From contig JAIVHD010000301.1 in assembly GCA_020201235.1 (NCBI GenBank), positions 1 through 13,189 on the forward strand: a stretch of 13,189 nt of DNA, given 5' to 3'. A model generated the notes under the pieces. It saw only the letters and a list, made by a program, of their open reading frames with translations, made no database searches and was not told where the DNA came from. Below, in pieces: positions 1,085 to 12,942 of the stretch; the stretch's first letter is position 1; each line of letters begins with the position of its first letter. The stretch is from Lysobacteraceae bacterium (GTDB taxonomy: Bacteria; Pseudomonadota; Gammaproteobacteria; Xanthomonadales; Wenzhouxiangellaceae). The translations under genes were made by a program, and so were the position numbers.

Positions 1085-1948
1085 TCACGCGGCCTGACTT
1101 CCCCCGACCTTGTCCAAGCCAAGATTTCGACAAAGTGTAAGCGTTGCTGCGGACCGATTGAGCGTATAGAAATGAATTCCCGGCACCCCGGCTTCGAGCA
1201 GCTGCTGACAAAGACCGGTCACGACGTCTTCGCCAAAGGCCCGAATCGAGCGCTCGTCGCCTGCTTCTTCCCAGGCATGCAGCCGCTTTCCAATCCATTT
1301 GGGGATGTCCGCGCCGCACATGCTTGAAAAACGAGCCAGACGCGAATAGTTGGTGATCGGCATAATACCCGGGGTCACCGGAATATCCATCCCGAGCCGC
1401 GCACAGTCTTCCATGAAGCTTGCATAGCACTCGAAATTGAAGAAGTACTGCGTGATGGCACCGTCGGCGCCAGCATCGACCTTTTCCTTGAAGTGCAGCA
1501 GGTCGGATTCGGGTTTCTTCGCTTCCGGATGAAACTCTGGATAACATGCGACCTCGATGTGAAAACGGCGACCATAATGCTCGCGGATAAAGCGCACCAG
1601 GTCCACGGCATAGTCGAATACGCCGCTGCCGCCGCCTGACGGCCGATCACCGCGCAGAACGACCAATCGATCGACACCGGCTTCCAGGTAGGCATCCAGG
1701 AGTTCGCGGATGCCATCGGTATCTTCGGACATGCAGGAGATGTGAGGCGCCGCCGAAATGCCGGTTTCTCGCTGAATATTGAGTACCGTTGCCTTGGTTC
1801 GAGCTCGGGTAGATCCTCCGGCCCCGAAGGTGACCGACATGTAGGCCGGTTTTAATTCGGCAAGCTTGTCGCGCGTTCGTGTGAACGACTCGATCTGCTC
1901 GTCATTTTTAGGCGGAAAGAATTCAAAGCTGACTTGTGGATGGGTCAT
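1085..1948 (-). CDS. metF: 5,10-methylenetetrahydrofolate reductase
   Basis: Flavoprotein reducing 5,10-methylene-THF to 5-methyl-THF, the methyl donor for methionine synthase; cytosolic TIM-barrel enzyme. The 287-residue length fits bacterial MetF (E. coli 296). Visible signatures: VSFEFFPPK with the catalytic Glu at residue 9 (E. coli Glu28), FGAGGSTR at 41-48, LRGD with Asp101 (Asp120), AITQYFF with Gln167 (Gln183), and HFYTLNRS near the C-terminus. The ATG at 1946-1948 gives the usual short N-terminus; no strong Shine-Dalgarno precedes it. It is last of the minus-strand cluster metK-ahcY-metF. A gap of 200 nt after ahcY holds two strong hairpins, so it may have its own promoter or depend on read-through. 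Its 3' end abuts the palindromic element at 890-1081. No defects seen. Confidence 0.96.
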   Translation of the reverse strand: MTHPQVSFEFFPPKNDEQIESFTRTRDKLAELKPAYMSVTFGAGGSTRARTKATVLNIQRETGISAAPHISCMSEDTDGIRELLDAYLEAGVDRLVVLRGDRPSGGGSGVFDYAVDLVRFIREHYGRRFHIEVACYPEFHPEAKKPESDLLHFKEKVDAGADGAITQYFFNFECYASFMEDCARLGMDIPVTPGIMPITNYSRLARFSSMCGADIPKWIGKRLHAWEEAGDERSIRAFGEDVVTGLCQQLLEAGVPGIHFYTLNRSAATLTLCRNLGLDKVGGSQAA

Positions 1949-2148: not shown

Positions 2149-3609
<1,461 letters not shown>

Positions 3610-3741: not shown

Positions 3742-4461
3742 TTACAGTCCGGCTGCCTGGCGAAGCGCATCAGCACGATCAGTCTTTTCCCAGCTGAAGG
3801 TCGTGAAGTGCTCCTCACGCTTCTTGCCATCGCGAACCACCTCTGCGGAAGTCTGTTCCGGATGCCGGCCAAAGTGGCCGTGGGTCGCGGTCTGGCGATA
3901 CATCGGATGCAGCAGGTCAAGCATTTTCAGAATGCCAAAGGGACGCAGGTCGAAATGCTCACGCACCAGCTGCTCGATCTTTTCCTCGGGTATGCGACCG
4001 GTGCCGAAGGTCGTGACCGATACTGAAGTCGGCTCGGCAACCCCGATCGCATAACTGACCTGAATTTCGCATTTCTCGGCCAACCCGGCGGCAACGATAT
4101 TCTTGGCCACGTAGCGCCCGGCGTAGGTCGCCGAACGGTCGACCTTCGACGGATCTTTCCCCGAGAACGCGCCGCCACCGTGCCGGGCCATGCCGCCGTA
4201 GGTATCCACGATGATCTTGCGCCCGGTCAGGCCAGCGTCGCCAACCGGACCGCCAATGACGAATTTACCGGTCGGATTGATATGGAACAGCGTGTCTTTG
4301 TGCAGCCATTCCTTGGGCAGCACCGGCTCAATAATGTGCTCGCGCACACCCTCGCGAATCTCGTCGAGCTCGACCCCTTCATCGTGCTGCGTGGACAACA
4401 CGACCGCATCGATCGCGACCGGTTTGCCCTCGGAGTAACGCAATGTGACCTGGCTTTTGGC
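3742..4461 (-). pseudogene. metK: S-adenosylmethionine synthetase, C-terminal part (displaced frame after internal deletion)
   Basis: This frame carries the central and C-terminal domains of MetK, beginning [14 protein letters not shown], equivalent to about E. coli residue 165 (counting Met). It continues with [47 protein letters not shown] and [15 protein letters not shown], and ends [15 protein letters not shown]. These form the substrate- and ATP/phosphate-binding core. A roughly 20-residue insert after GHFGR, absent from E. coli, looks like a lineage variant and not damage. The open frame extends back to 4527, but residues upstream of 4461 are out-of-frame reading of the N-terminal part. 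Relative to E. coli, about residues 96-164 are missing, including the mobile active-site loop and the GAGDQG signature with its catalytic Asp. As written the product cannot be a working synthetase. Either a true pseudogene or an assembly error. Confidence 0.9.
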
Positions 4462-4744
4462 TGTTAATGACCGAGCACGTGCGCCCATCGAAACCGACCC
4501 GGGACGAGTCATAGCCGACATCCACAACCACCTGACGAATCAAATCTTCGAGATCGACCCAGGCGGTGGTCGAAATCTCGCCGCCGACGATGACGGCACC
4601 AGTCTTGATAAAGGTTTCGCAAGCAACCCTGGCGTATGGATCCTGGGTCAGAATTGCATCCAGCACGGCGTCGGAAATCTGGTCGGCCATTTTGTCGGGG
4701 TGGCCTTCTGAAACGGATTCCGATGTGAACAGATAGTCTCTCAT
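4379..4744 (-). pseudogene. metK: S-adenosylmethionine synthetase, N-terminal part, truncated by frameshifting deletion
   Basis: MetK makes S-adenosylmethionine from methionine and ATP. Residues 1-95 align to E. coli MetK without gaps: [49 protein letters not shown] and [12 protein letters not shown]. The next bases (about 4459-4462, AGCC on the coding strand) join directly to AKSQVT of the C-terminal half in another frame. The protein therefore runs into 26 out-of-frame residues and stops at 4379. If the missing part had E. coli length, 209 nt are gone. ATG at 4742-4744 is the correct start; an AAGAG lies about 13 nt upstream, somewhat far for a Shine-Dalgarno. First gene of the metK-ahcY-metF cluster. 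MetK is normally essential, so this is either a misassembly or a second copy exists elsewhere. Confidence 0.92.
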
Positions 4745-4782
4745 GGGCTTATTTATCTCTTGATTCGGATAGAAAGATAAGC

Positions 4783-7093: not shown

Positions 7094-7474
7094 TTAGTAC
7101 CAGCCTAGCAATCGTCGCCACAACGGCGGCCGTCTCGCTGGCTCGGCGATCTGCTGTTCGGCGTCGGGCACTGAGTCAGGCCCCGCAATGCACGAAATCA
7201 CCAGATCGTCGATCAAGGCCGGTGTAAATCGGTACGGGTCGAACGCCTCGAGATCGTGCCGCCTGAGGACCTGGCTCACGAGCCGTTCGATCGCGACGAA
7301 TTTCATCGACCAGTCGGTGAAACGGCGGTTGCGAATGGTGCGGCGCGTGAGCCGCTGTACATCATGGTGCCTCGGATCCCGGCGAACAAACCAGAATTCG
7401 CGAAACTTCAGGATCGACTCCGTAGCCCTGGTGGGCGGCCGGGAACGAGGCACGAGAACAATACGACAGCGCAA
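7094..7474 (-). CDS. Unrecognised protein, possibly frameshifted at its 5' end
   Basis: I do not recognise this protein. The frame runs to 7474 (a TTG directly after a TGA). The part from about FTDWSMKFVAIERLVSQVL onward has codon use typical of the region (mostly G/C at third positions) and looks truly coding; it is soluble, basic, and ends PPLWRRLLGWY. There are no clear motifs, signal peptide or membrane segments. The first 25 or so residues read poorly (MRCRIVLVPRSRPPTRATES), while another frame (7362-7550) reads more naturally upstream. The simplest model is one gene from 7550 with a frameshift near 7410, giving a protein of roughly 150 residues with CSCCG near its N-terminus. An unshifted alternative start is ATG 7306. 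The gene is flanked by palindromic elements on both sides. Confidence 0.45.
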   Translation of the reverse strand: MRCRIVLVPRSRPPTRATESILKFREFWFVRRDPRHHDVQRLTRRTIRNRRFTDWSMKFVAIERLVSQVLRRHDLEAFDPYRFTPALIDDLVISCIAGPDSVPDAEQQIAEPARRPPLWRRLLGWY

Positions 7475-7550
7475 TCAAGTGATCTTCAGACAGCATGTAC
7501 TTTCCGCAACAGGAGCAACGCCGAGAGGATAAGGGATCGTGCCTGATCAT
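7362..7550 (-). pseudogene. Probable 5' portion of the frameshifted unrecognised gene (CSCCG-containing)
   Basis: A 62-residue frame starting at ATG 7550: MIRHDPLSSRRCSCCGKYML, then SEDHLIALSYCSRASF, PAAHQGYGVDPE. A cluster of cysteines (CSCCG plus a later SYCS) suggests a small metal-binding head. It overlaps the gene at 7094-7474 in another frame and stops at 7362. Splicing the two frames near YGVDPE/SILKFREFWFVRR gives a continuous plausible protein, so I read this as the N-terminal part of one broken gene. It could instead be a separate small protein. Confidence 0.3.
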
Positions 7551-7744: not shown

Positions 7745-7951
7745 TTTTAAGAAGCCGAAACCGCCAGACCGCCCGATCCGAACCAGGGCGGGCCTGGTCC
7801 GGATTCGCCGCACGGCGAACGCCGCCAGCAACAGCGCGCCTGACCATCCAGCGGTGCGTGCAGAATCGATACCCCCGCTGACAAATAGCTTGGCTGGAAA
7901 CGCGCATTCCGCACCCGGCGCGAATGCCCTTTTGGTAAGATTCGATCCATC
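7745..7951 (+). promoter_or_regulatory. Gene-free leader of the mrp operon
   Basis: No convincing gene here. It holds a hairpin 7776-7787/7793-7804 (11 of 12 paired, loop GCGGG) and a second one directly after it, TTCGCCG/CGGCGAA (7804-7810/7813-7819). A CTGACA at 7878-7883 is a fair -35 box, but no good -10 follows at the usual spacing. The mrp promoter must lie in this interval or within the preceding element; I cannot place it. The hairpins could shape the 5' untranslated region. Confidence 0.35.
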
Positions 7952-8314
7952 ATGCGATATTTGCTTTCTCTGACGATCGTGCTCAGCCTTTTATGGCTGG
8001 CCATTTCAGGCGTGTATAAACCGCTGCTGTTTATGCTGGGTGCCGGGTCAGTTTTGTTTGTCATCTGGATTTCAAGGCGCATGGATGTGGTCGGCGTCGA
8101 GCACAACCCGGTTTTGTACTCCTGGCGACTTGTGGTTTACTGGCTCTGGCTGATCTGGGCCATCATCAAGGCGAACATCGAAGTCAGCCAAGCCGCACTT
8201 TCGAAAAGCGGACGGATCACGCCGCGCATCGTCACTGTACCGCTGCACCTGAAATCGGCGGTCGCCAAGGTGACTTTTGCCAATTCGGTCACACCACCAT
8301 GGCGCTGGCGCTGA
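7952..8314 (+). pseudogene. mrpE: Na+/H+ antiporter subunit E (MrpE/MnhE), C-terminus lost
   Basis: Small membrane subunit of the Mrp antiporter. Helices at about residues 3-20, 24-42 and 58-78, then the family's amphipathic segment ending KSAVAKVTFANSVT. Homologues continue here with LTPGT and about 45 further residues (usual length near 160). Instead the frame reads PPWRWR and stops at 8314, while the sequence from 8299 is already the interior of mrpF. The real tail of mrpE and the beginning of mrpF are therefore missing at a junction near 8290-8298. ATG 7952 has only a weak Shine-Dalgarno. First gene of the operon. Assembly error and true deletion both fit. Confidence 0.85.
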
Positions 8315-8547
8315 TTCGGGCACTCAAGGGGCCCACCGTTTTCGACCGCATCGTTGCAGTCAACGTCTTCGGCACCAAGACCGTGTTGATTGTTGCTCTG
8401 ATTACGGCCATCAGCGGCAACGACGACCTGATCGACGTTGCCCTGGTCTACGCCCTGATTAACTTCATTGCCATCGTCGCGGTGCTCAAACTCAGCCGCA
8501 TGCGCGACCTGGCCGCGGCCGGCGAAGGGGATATCACTGATGGCTGA
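8299..8547 (+). pseudogene. mrpF: Na+/H+ antiporter subunit F (MrpF/MnhF), N-terminus lost
   Basis: Recognisable MrpF: MALALIRALKGPTVFDRIVAVN, GTKTVLIVALITAI, then DLIDVALVYALINFIAIVAVLK. The family normally has some 12-18 residues of first membrane helix before MALALIRAL; here the ATG at 8299 is that internal methionine, and upstream sequence belongs to mrpE. With 82 residues it retains two of three helices. Its stop (8545-8547) overlaps the mrpG start by 8 nt, normal for the operon. The junction with mrpE shows a deletion that I estimate at 170-200 nt from typical family lengths. Confidence 0.85.
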
Positions 8548-8896
8548 CACCCTTTTGACGGTGCTTTCCAGCGCCTGCCTGCTGCTGGGCGGGCTGTTTG
8601 GCATCTTCGGCGGGATCGGGCTTTTGCGCTTTCCCGACTTCTACTCACGACTGCACGCAGCCGGCGTAACCGATACCCTGTGCGCGCTATTAATCATCAC
8701 CGGTCTGATCATCCAGGCCGGCTTGGCGCTGGTCAGCATCAAGCTGGCGCTGATCCTGCTGTTCATGCTGTTTACCGCGCCAACCGCAAGCCACGCTCTG
8801 GCGCGCGCTGCCCTGGCCGATGGAATCGAGCCTGAATCCGTCGAAAACAGCCCTCAGGCACGCGCCGTCAACGGAGCACCGACATCGAATCCCTAA
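8540..8896 (+). CDS. mrpG: Na+/H+ antiporter subunit G (MrpG/MnhG)
   Basis: Small three-helix subunit of the Mrp cation/proton antiporter, 118 residues, the normal length. Diagnostic block: GIFGGIGLLRFPDFYSRLHA, then GVTDTLCALLIITGLIIQAG, then KLALILLFMLFTAPTASHAL. The start at ATG 8540 overlaps mrpF by 8 nt and has GAAGGGG about 7 nt upstream; the frame stays open further back, but those residues are out-of-frame mrpF. The C-terminal 30 residues are hydrophilic and unremarkable. The stop (8894-8896) overlaps the likely start of mrpB at 8884 by 13 nt. Intact. Confidence 0.93.
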   Translation: MADTLLTVLSSACLLLGGLFGIFGGIGLLRFPDFYSRLHAAGVTDTLCALLIITGLIIQAGLALVSIKLALILLFMLFTAPTASHALARAALADGIEPESVENSPQARAVNGAPTSNP

Positions 8897-9375
8897 TCGA
8901 CATCGCGCTGCTTTCCTTTCTGGTCGTGGTGGCAATCGCCGTGGTCGTGATTCGCGACCTGTTCTCAGCCGCCATGTTGTTCGCGATTTATTCGCTGCTG
9001 TCTGCCGCGCTGTTCGCCGTGCTCGACGCCGGTGACGTCGCATTGACCGAAGCCGCAGTCGGTGCCGGCATTTCTACGATTTTAATCCTGGCTGTACTCA
9101 CGCTCGCACCGCGCTACGAGACCGGCCACAAGGGCTTGGACTGGCCCGCTTTAAGCGTCGTGTTCATCACCGGTGGTTGCCTGCTGTGGGCGGTTTCGGC
9201 TCTCCCGATCTTCGGCTACGCCGACAACCCGATCCATGCGCACGTTGCACCTTATTACATCGAAAACGCCTACAAGGAACTCGGTGTGCCAAACATGGTT
9301 GCCGCGGTACTGGCCAGTTACCGGGGTTCCAGGCGGGCGTCCTGTTTGCCGCAGCCTGGATCCTGTTCGTGCTGA
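8884..9375 (+). pseudogene. mrpB: Na+/H+ antiporter subunit B, DUF4040 type; non-ATG start and lost C-terminus
   Basis: DUF4040/MrpB-type membrane subunit. Good matches: RDLFSAAMLFAIYSLLSAAL, DVALTEAAVGAGISTILIL, and HVAPYYIENAYKELGVPNMV ending AAVLASYRG. Homologues begin MExLIDIALL; here that Met is ATC (8884-8886), reading IESLIDIALLSF, with GGAG 7 nt upstream. A GTG at 8926 would cut into the first helix. So either AUC is used as a start or one base is wrong. After SYRG (to about 9327) homologues continue FDTLGE plus roughly 20 residues; here the frame passes into the interior of mnhB and ends at 9375 with out-of-frame residues. C-terminal loss is clear; whether the gene works is doubtful. 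Confidence 0.82.
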
Positions 9376-9671
9376 TCTACGGCCTCGAATCCGGCCTGGT
9401 GGTTATTCCGCAACGCGCCATGTTCGTGCTTTCGGCCGCCGGCGCACTGTTATACGCGCTCATCGGACTGCTGGGCGTATTCCTCGGCGGCCGCTTTCTC
9501 GACTTTTACCCTTTGCTGGAAAATCCGCAAGCCGCCCAGCAAGCCGGCATCATCCTGGTCGAGTTCGGCGTGGGCGTAACCGTTGCCTGCGTGGTGATGC
9601 TAATCTTTACCATGTTCGCCAGACGCCGCAGCGATCTCGGTCAATCATGGCATCCCGAGAAACAGGACTGA
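9324..9671 (+). pseudogene. mnhB: Na+/H+ antiporter MnhB subunit, N-terminus lost
   Basis: From 9324 the frame reads GFQAGVLFAAAWILFVLIYG, the conserved centre of MnhB, then further helices with LGGRFLDFYPLLENP and the conserved GIILVEFGVGVTVACVVMLI. The family's first 35 or so residues (first helix and the GPGG just before GFQAG) are absent; upstream sequence is mrpB in another frame. The open frame extends back to 9177 but those residues are mrpB shadow. The junction GGGGTTCC (9323-9330) fits both genes, so the break probably used microhomology. The C-terminus is normal and its stop overlaps mrpC as TGATG. Confidence 0.85.
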
Positions 9672-10036
9672 TGGAACTGCTTGGCCACTATAATTACTAT
9701 GTTGTCGTCATCCTGATGATGATTGGGCTTTATACAATCATCGCGCGCGGCAACCTTGTCAAAAAGGTCATCGGTCTGAACATATTTCAGACTTCGGTGT
9801 TCATCCTGTTTATCTCACTCGGCAAGATTTCCGGTGCTTCTACACCGGTCTGGCGCGATGGTGTCGAGGTGTATTCTAATCCATTACCGCATGTACTGAT
9901 ACTCACCGCGATCGTGGTCGGCGTGGCGACGACGTCCGTCGCGCTGGCGCTTGCGGTAAGAATCCACGAAGCCTACGGCTCCCTTGACGATGACGAACTT
10001 CGCGGGTCACACGGGCCGGACGATTCGATCACATGA
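9671..10036 (+). CDS. mrpC: Na+/H+ antiporter subunit C (MrpC/MnhC, NuoK-like)
   Basis: 121-residue NuoK-like subunit with three helices: YYVVVILMMIGLYTIIARG, VIGLNIFQTSVFILFISLGK, and LPHVLILTAIVVGVATTSVA with the conserved LPHVLILTAIVVG signature. It resembles complex I NuoK and is needed for Mrp assembly. Start ATG 9671 overlaps the mnhB stop as TGATG, with AGGA nearby; an in-frame ATG at 9647 would add 8 residues. The stop (10034-10036) overlaps the ATG of mrpD at 10033. The tail is acidic and hydrophilic (DDDELRGSHGPDD). Intact. Confidence 0.93.
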   Translation: MELLGHYNYYVVVILMMIGLYTIIARGNLVKKVIGLNIFQTSVFILFISLGKISGASTPVWRDGVEVYSNPLPHVLILTAIVVGVATTSVALALAVRIHEAYGSLDDDELRGSHGPDDSIT

Positions 10037-11479
10037 ACTGCCCCGCTGATCATCGCCCCGCTGTGCGCCCTGCTCCCGGGGCGAAATCTTCCATGGCTGA
10101 CCGCATTCGTCAGCGTCGCGATTTCGGCCGTTATCTCAGCCTGGCTGCTTACGGCGGCTTGGTCCGGCCCATTGTCGTATCACTTCGGCAATTGGCCGCC
10201 GCCGTTCGGCATCGAGTACCGGGTCGACGCAGTCAACGCACTACTGGCCCTGCTGATCTCGGGCGTCGCGCTGTTCCTGCTGCCGTGGGCGAAGACCAGC
10301 GTCAACCTCGAAATCCCGGAACGCCAGGGTCCGTTCTACGCTCTGTTTCTGCTGGCGCTTTCCGGCCTGATGGGCATCACGCTGACCGGCGACGCGTTCA
10401 ACGTGTTCGTATTCCTCGAAATCTCGTCGCTGTCGACCTATGCTCTAATCGCCCACGGCCAGGATCGGCGTGCGCTGAAAGCGGCATTCCGTTATCTGAT
10501 CATGGGCACGATCGGCGCGACATTCTTCCTGATCGGAATCGGGTTCCTCTACGCGATGACCGGCACGCTGAATATGGCCGACCTGGCCGAGCGACTGCCC
10601 GAGGTCCGCGACAGCAACGTGGTACACGCAGCCCTGGCGTTCATTGTCGTCGGGCTGGGGTTGAAGCTGGCGCTGTTCCCGTTGCACCTGTGGCTGCCCA
10701 ACGCCTACGCGTTCGCGCCCAACTTCATCACCGCTTTCCTGGCGGCGACCGCAACCAAGGTCGCGCTTTATGTGATGTTGCGCTTCATCTTCACAGTGTT
10801 CTCGCCCGAATTCAGTTTTACGGCGATGCCGCTTGCCGCTGTGCTGATGACGCTGGCAATCGCCGGCATGGTCGCCGGATCGTGGGTCGCAATGTTCGAG
10901 GTCAATCTCAAACGCTTGCTGGCCTATTCCTCGGTTGCCCAGGTCGGCTACATGGTGCTCGGCGTATCGCTGGTCACCGCAGCCGGGGTCGCGGCCGGCA
11001 TCCTGCATCTGTTCAATCATGCGTTGATGAAGGCGGCGCTGTTCGCCGCGCTGGGCACAATCTACTACCAGATCGGCAGCGTGCGCCTCACCGAAATCGC
11101 CGGCATGGGACGCCACATGCCCTGGACGTTCACGGCCTTCGCGCTGGCAGGCCTGAGCCTGATCGGCGTGCCGCTGACCGCCGGCTTCACCAGCAAGTGG
11201 TACTTGGTCATCGCAGCGCTCGATGCCGGCCAGCCCTGGCTAATCGTCATCATCATGGCCACTTCGCTGTTGGCCATCTACTACATCTGGCGCGTGGTCG
11301 AGGCCGCCTGGTTCCACGACACGCCGGAAGGCGCGGCACTGCCCAACGAGGCACCCCTGTCGCTGCTAGTGCCACTTTGGGTACTGGTAGCGCTGAATTT
11401 CTACTTCGGCCTCGACACCCGGCTGAACGTCGGCGGCGCTGAAGCCGCCGCTCGGACACTGATCGGGGGCGCGCCATGA
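10033..11479 (+). CDS. mrpD: Na+/H+ antiporter subunit D (MrpD), needs a one-base frameshift near the start
   Basis: Large multi-helix ion-translocating subunit homologous to complex I NuoL/M/N. In numbering from the in-frame TTG at 10172: VFLEISSLSTYALIAHG with the key membrane Glu83, GLKLALFPLHLWLPNAY with Lys165, TATKVALY with Lys196, and FNHALMKAALFAALG. The coding frame is open from 10037 and reads APLIIAPLCALLPGRNLPWL, a normal MrpD N-terminus, but has no ATG. The expected start is ATG 10033, in ATGA overlap with mrpC, which is one frame off. Removing one C from CCCC (10041-10044) restores MNCPLIIAPLCALLPG. Translation from 10172 would lose the first helix. The stop overlaps the next ATG (11476). 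Otherwise full length (about 481 residues). Confidence 0.88.
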
Positions 11480-12942
11480 GCCCGTTCAGCGTCGTCCTGA
11501 TTCCGTTTGTCGGCGCGATACTGATTGCGCTGGCCGGCAAGCGCGACCGGCTGCGCGACGGCATCGGCTGGGCCACGGCGATTGCCTTTTTTCTGGCCGT
11601 GCTCGGCCAGTTGGGCCCGGTGCTTGACGGCGCGGGCCGGGAGCAGCTGCTGCTGGAAATACTTCCCGGACTGGAAATCGCTTTTGCCGTCGAACCGCTG
11701 GGCATGATCTTCGCGCTGGTCGCCTCATCGCTGTGGCTGGTGGCCACGCTTTACGCGCAAAGCTACATGAAGGCCGGCGGCTATAGCCACCTGGGACGCT
11801 TCTTCGCCAGCTACGCGATTGCGCTCGGCGCGGCGGCCGGGGTCGCGTTCTCGGCCAATCTGTTGACCATGTTCATTTTCTACGAGGTGCTGAGCCTGTC
11901 GACCTATCCGCTGGTGGCCCACAGCGGCACTGAGAACGCGCGGCGCGGTGCCCGGGTATATCTCGGCTATCTCCTGGCGACTTCGATCGGGCTGTTCCTG
12001 GTCGCGATCATCTGGACCTGGCACGCGGCCGGAACGCTCGATTTCCGCCCCGGCGGCATCATCGAAGGCAACATTGACCCGACCTGGGTGCCGCTGCTGG
12101 TCGCATTGTTCATGTTCGGCATCGGCAAGGCCGCGCTGATGCCGGTACACCGCTGGCTGCCTTCGGCCATGGTCGCGCCGGCCCCGGTCAGCGCCCTGCT
12201 GCACGCGGTGGCCGTAGTCAAAGCCGGCGTGTTCTGCGTCGTCAAGGTCGCGGTATTCGTTTTTGGTACTGATTTTCTAGTCAGCACCGGCAGCGGCATC
12301 TGGGTGTCCTGGGTGGCCGCGTTCACGATTGTCGCTGCCTCGCTGATTGCGCTGACGCTGGACGACCTCAAGGCGCGGTTGGCCTATTCGACGATCGCCC
12401 AGTTGAGCTACGTCGTGCTCGGCGCGCTGGTGGCTACGCCACTGGCGATCGCAGGTGCCACGCTGCAGATCGTGATGCACGCGTTCGCCAAGATCACGCT
12501 GTTTTTCGGTGCCGGCGCAATCCAGACCGCGCACGACAAGAAGAAAATCAGCCAGCTCGACGGCCTGGGCCGCGCGATGCCGCTGACCTTCGGTGCCTTT
12601 ACCATTGCGACCCTGAGCATCATCGGGCTGCCGCTATTCGGCGGCATGTGGGCCAAGTGGTACCTGCTTTCGGGCAGCATTGACGCTGGCCAGTGGGTAC
12701 TGGTCGGCGCGCTGCTGACCAGTTCCGTGCTCAACATCGTCTACCTGCTGGTGATCCCGGCGCGCGCCTTCTTCCTGCCCTCGCGCGATGAAACCGCGCC
12801 GGCGGGCATCCGGGAAGCACCCTGGCCGATGGTGGCGGCCATGCTGATCACGGCGACCTGCTGCGTGGTGCTGTTCTTCCGGCCCGAGCCGATATTCACG
12901 CTGGTCGAAATGCTATTGCCAGCATCCGAAGGATTCCAATGA
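11476..12942 (+). CDS. Second MrpD-like proton-translocating subunit (NuoN/MrpD family)
   Basis: 488-residue paralogue of MrpD/NuoN with about 14 membrane helices. Conserved features: FIFYEVLSLSTYPLVAHSG with Glu137, FGIGKAALMPVHRWLPSAM with Lys218, APVSALLHAVAVVKAGVF with His243 and Lys249, LKARLAYSTIAQLSYVVLG, and MHAFAKITLFFGAGAI. These are the charged residues used for proton transfer in this superfamily. ATG 11476 overlaps the mrpD stop (ATGA), and its stop overlaps the next ATG (12939) the same way, so translation is probably coupled. No MrpA with a long C-terminal extension is present in the window; the B-type domains are separate genes, and this subunit may take an MrpA-like place. 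Intact, GC-rich, no anomalies. Confidence 0.93.
   Translation: MSPFSVVLIPFVGAILIALAGKRDRLRDGIGWATAIAFFLAVLGQLGPVLDGAGREQLLLEILPGLEIAFAVEPLGMIFALVASSLWLVATLYAQSYMKAGGYSHLGRFFASYAIALGAAAGVAFSANLLTMFIFYEVLSLSTYPLVAHSGTENARRGARVYLGYLLATSIGLFLVAIIWTWHAAGTLDFRPGGIIEGNIDPTWVPLLVALFMFGIGKAALMPVHRWLPSAMVAPAPVSALLHAVAVVKAGVFCVVKVAVFVFGTDFLVSTGSGIWVSWVAAFTIVAASLIALTLDDLKARLAYSTIAQLSYVVLGALVATPLAIAGATLQIVMHAFAKITLFFGAGAIQTAHDKKKISQLDGLGRAMPLTFGAFTIATLSIIGLPLFGGMWAKWYLLSGSIDAGQWVLVGALLTSSVLNIVYLLVIPARAFFLPSRDETAPAGIREAPWPMVAAMLITATCCVVLFFRPEPIFTLVEMLLPASEGFQ

Follow-up and report, generated by a model that had tools for sequence, protein, structure and literature searches.

A blunt join inside metK of a Wenzhouxiangellaceae draft genome is most probably an assembly artefact

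Collapsed or mis-sized scaffold gaps occur in short-read draft genomes; a literature search on such gaps found no paper. The GAGDQG signature has a catalytic role in the S-adenosylmethionine (SAM) synthetase MetK. Escherichia coli has no SAM transport, and its metK was deleted only in the presence of a plasmid-borne copy that compensated for the loss (PMC4404868). In most Rickettsia, metK is pseudogenised and SAM is imported (PMC5615194); a real loss of the gene is therefore possible in principle.

Here we analysed a stretch of 13,189 nucleotides (the window), which is the whole of contig C13 from a Wenzhouxiangellaceae draft genome with 439 contigs and 83% completeness. Its metK gene is interrupted within the neighbourhood listed below.

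1085..1948, minus strand: metF, one open frame (PF02219, 4.8e-85), collinear in relatives
2149..3609, minus strand: ahcY, intact (PF05221 and PF00670)
3742..4461, minus strand: C-terminal part of metK (TIGR01034 positions 161-360, 325.5 bits; PF02772 positions 52-120 of 120; PF02773)
4461..4462, minus strand: metK junction, blunt, with 215 nt of the relatives absent and a change of frame (BLAST)
4462..4744, minus strand: N-terminal part of metK (S-AdoMet_synt_N; TIGR01034 positions 1-91; PF00438, 4e-41)
4744, minus strand: ATG of the open reading frame holding the N-terminal part (ORF list)

The metK junction and its relatives

The two metK pieces abut directly and in different frames, the joint falling precisely at 4461/4462 of the window. 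The original prediction had placed a direct join with a frame change at 4455..4470, with about 209 nt lost; the join and the frame change stand, while BLAST and the TIGR01034 profile refine the location, and the missing length is instead 215 nt. This is the distance between the two BLAST pieces in 6/6 relatives (Wenzhouxiangella limi and five same-genus genomes), against all of which the pieces adjoin with zero leftover bases. In the same six, the absent segment codes for 71-72 residues that include the GAGDQG signature of bacterial MetK, and this agrees with the earlier statement that the signature is gone here. By Pfam, the N domain is represented by profile positions 2-93 of 99; the central domain lacks its first half, and its second half lies in the C-terminal part alongside the C domain. 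Consequently the N, M and C domains of bacterial MetK (TIGR01034; Pfam S-AdoMet_synt) do not lie in one open frame.

Both pieces look well kept and without other damage. Compared with the relative G002, differences at the first, second and third codon positions number 21/5/103 over 234 codons for one piece and 11/6/44 over 91 codons for the other, and thus fall mainly at third positions. Repeat-mediated deletion was considered and rejected: the only direct repeat found in 4200-4760, imperfect, 16 nt long and with a spacing of 184, lies away from the joint. No clear microhomology was seen by eye at the joints inspected, and the window contains no tRNA, nor does any Rfam family reach its gathering score there.

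Among named relatives, W. limi was the nearest found, with 86% amino-acid identity over the C part of metK. The gene order metF-ahcY-metK is kept in 3/3 relatives compared by protein (G002, G004 and G005), to which ahcY is 89-91% identical along its whole length. When 61 genomes including this one were searched with the MetK model, all 61 gave a match, 59 of them above the cut-off. Each of the five same-genus genomes holds one continuous metK match (model positions 1-359 or 1-360 of 377). The joint was found in none of these five; matches to a query spanning it end at the joint, covering one half or both halves separately. Two search rows from further genomes were also recorded. In a two-contig genome from the same taxonomic order, metK appears as three matches (G054:C1:980063-981272), perhaps through frame errors, and a member of the same family carries a second long metK match (G023:C193:400-1524; 519 bits, model positions 1-367) besides the usual one.

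The original prediction had also raised the prospect of a second metK elsewhere in the genome. A TIGR01034 profile search of the 83%-complete assembly returned only the two window pieces, at 4460-4732 (model positions 1-91) and 3862-4461 (model positions 161-360), and the archaeal-type synthetase (PF01941) gave no match in the same assembly. At 83% completeness, the lack of either enzyme is no proof of its absence.

Losses on the same contig and elsewhere in the draft

The metK loss is not isolated. Three other losses lie on the same 13-kb contig, near 7382, 8293 and 9323.

7381..7383, minus strand: junction in a BLUF-domain gene, about 116 nt missing relative to G005, with a frame change (pieces 7103-7381 and 7383-7499)
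8293..8295, plus strand: junction across mrpE/mnhE and mrpF/mnhF, 171 nt missing, by which the former loses its end and the latter its start (PF01899, PF04066)
9323..9324, plus strand: junction between an MbhD-like part and mrpB/mnhB, 219-249 nt missing (PF13244, PF04039)

The sharpness of these joints varies. The loss near 7382 was measured at DNA level against G005 only and is less sharp, with 21 bases unaligned; the G005 relative of the gene at 7103-7499 contains a BLUF (blue-light sensor) domain (PF04940). At mrpE/mrpF, 171 nt are missing relative to 4/4 relatives in that comparison, the joint being sharp (2 leftover bases) only against G005; comparison with the remaining three leaves 94-110 bases unaligned. 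The loss before and within mrpB amounts to 219, 219, 231, 246 and 249 nt in 5/5 relatives, with zero leftover bases. The latter two seams lie in a Mrp/Mnh-type cation/proton antiporter operon (7949-12942, plus strand), in which E, F, MbhD-like and B genes were assigned by Pfam and others are presumably G, C and D/A-like; the D-like gene has an ambiguous start codon near 10033-10045.

From the 439 contigs, a wider sample took in 37 (297,009 bases) which, with five partial loci, came to 312,756 bases; the control comprised 21 stretches (309,018 bases) of the sister genome G005. Over the 85,308 bases of our assembly that aligned with relatives, we counted 9 deletion junctions, 8 of them at least 150 nt, against 2 in 73,196 aligned bases of the control, 1 of them at least 150 nt. 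Eight of the nine sizes fall within 163-298 nt, and the ninth is 65 nt; the 116-nt loss near 7382 falls outside the limits of this count. Five losses of 163-298 nt affect genes on other contigs and are listed here with the 65-nt case.

Outside the window: methylmalonyl-CoA-mutase-type protein, 276-294 nt missing, in frame (Pfam on the relatives' gene)
Outside the window: HlyD-type adaptor, 298 nt missing, frame change (Pfam on the relatives' gene)
Outside the window: amidohydrolase, 163 nt missing, frame change (Pfam on the relatives' gene)
Outside the window: AcrB-family pump, 215 nt missing, frame change (Pfam on the relatives' gene)
Outside the window: DUF3141 protein, 190 nt missing, frame change (Pfam on the relatives' gene)
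Outside the window: L147 position 6652, 65 nt missing, seen against one relative only

The excess of junctions was assessed with one-sided conditional binomial tests. The full comparison (9 vs 2), in which our contigs were set against a larger reference set (G005 included) than the control, gave p = 0.056, and restriction to junctions of at least 150 nt, a limit chosen after the events were seen, gave 8 vs 1 and p = 0.033. With the window excluded, the counts were 6 vs 2 (p = 0.147) and, at 150 nt or more, 5 vs 1 (p = 0.111). When one and the same reference set served for both genomes, the test gave p = 0.123 for 6 vs 2 and, at 150 nt or more, p = 0.052 for 6 vs 1. The excess is thus modest and window-dependent; outside the window it is not significant and suggestive only.

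Other scans were made with different samples and limits. A first scan of 17 contigs found 3 deletions in 15,884 aligned bases, compared with 1 in 51,258 for the control. At protein level, the 37 contigs gave 4 events and the control none; one of the four is an N-run (L218), and another, a 107-nt event in L219, did not recur in the scan against G003 or in the nine-junction count. metK escaped the protein-level scan: an overlapping frame of 819 aa exists at this locus, and the scan, which selects the longest frame, probably chose it instead. Against 1.22 Mb of the relative G003, 53,702 bases of the 37 contigs aligned and held 7 deletions together with 2 insertions; the control, with 65,138 aligned bases, held no insertion and 2 deletions, one of 61 and one of 596 nt. 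The nine-junction count used more references than the G003 scan and a tighter limit on leftover bases, which dropped both insertions in our contigs, the 596-nt control deletion and a deletion at L147 9027-9065. This last deletion, just before the conserved part of infB, is probably natural. L147 (G000:C7) also holds an element of about 100 nt (1818-1918). It matches G004 at no fewer than ten places, with 82-90% identity, G003 at two and G002 at one, and L151 carries a 70-nt partial copy; neither an Rfam match nor an inverted repeat was found there.

Assembly gaps and the weighing of explanations

Seven N-runs of 24-225 nt occur in the 37 contigs. For three of the seven, the matching interval of a relative was located, and each run is 22-40 nt shorter than that interval (39 vs about 79, 65 vs about 103 and 38 vs about 60), in keeping with scaffold gaps whose size was poorly estimated. 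The sister genome G005 contains three N-runs of 369-517 nt, so N-runs as such do not set our assembly apart, and Ns might in principle also stand for stretches masked on purpose. At the deletion junctions themselves, Ns are absent. We also inspected four long essential genes of the assembly (secA, rpoB, rpoC and dnaE) and found an internal deletion in none. While secA is whole, the other three, on G000:C144, C62, C420 and C346, are fragmentary: rpoB runs into the end of a contig, dnaE falls into two parts at contig ends, and of rpoC just a C-terminal piece turned up, showing how incomplete the assembly is; this outcome neither helps nor strongly refutes an artefact.

We consider the metK break to be an assembly artefact rather than a biological loss of MetK, with a probability of about 90%. 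This verdict is inferred from the observed junction, its size relative to the relatives, the other junctions and the short N-runs in the assembly. Four losses in unrelated genes of one 13-kb contig, together with scaffold-like gaps, have the look of collapsed gaps; had a single real deletion struck an essential gene, the other losses would not have come with it. The two flanks of about 215 nt of DNA that was not sequenced or not assembled would have been written side by side without placeholder Ns, and similar N-free joining seems to have happened at other places of the same draft. The responsible step may have been the joining of read pairs, a blunt scaffold join or the removal of Ns. The missing bases would then be present in the organism, whose metF-ahcY-metK neighbourhood most likely contains a single metK that is ordinary and intact. 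Where the original prediction had called the event recent or artificial, the artificial branch is better supported by the four losses on one contig, the others elsewhere and the lack of a second assembled MetK; its reading as a biological loss of the catalytic centre is not supported.

A real and recent 215-nt deletion could instead have inactivated metK in a Wenzhouxiangella-like cell that imports SAM or carries an unassembled MetK or substitute. The clean junction, the well-conserved flanks and the 83% completeness are compatible with this, as is the case of most Rickettsia, with their pseudogenised metK and import of SAM (PMC5615194). We nevertheless regard such a deletion as very improbable, given that the assembly contains neither a second metK nor a PF01941 protein, that 5/5 same-genus genomes have a single continuous metK, and that unrelated genes on this and other contigs have losses too. 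Drafts built from mixed samples can collapse strain variants, and an assembler might thus have picked a deletion carried by one strain or subpopulation; however, separate deletions would be needed in many genes, four of them on the window contig, making this slightly less probable still. Genome-wide decay, with many real pseudogenes arising by deletion, would account for several broken genes across contigs and has just as slim a chance: eight of the nine counted sizes lie within 163-298 nt, the metK pieces are free of other damage, and ahcY, metF and secA are whole.

If the break is an artefact, as we think most probable, nothing changes in the biology, and the metK loss most likely does not exist in the organism. 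The assembly itself seems to have lost pieces of about 100-300 nt at places not marked by Ns, and any pseudogene or missing gene that it appears to show should therefore not be believed without reads. The genes affected include metK, mrpE, mrpF, mrpB, the BLUF gene, the HlyD-type adaptor, the AcrB-type pump and the mutase.

Comparison with known systems

EamA-type transporters form a broad family. The metK pseudogenes of Rickettsia, described alongside SAM import by EamA (PMC5615194), share an interrupted metK open frame with the present locus. The loss is reported there as biological and paired with a transporter (PMC5615194), whereas here unrelated genes of the same contig are also cut. As with collapsed scaffold gaps, unrelated genes have here lost about as much as the gap of a read pair, and N-runs occur elsewhere in the assembly; the present case differs in that its junctions are free of Ns. 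The closest counterparts are the metK genes of W. limi and the five same-genus genomes, which are the same gene but run continuously through the 215 nt absent here.
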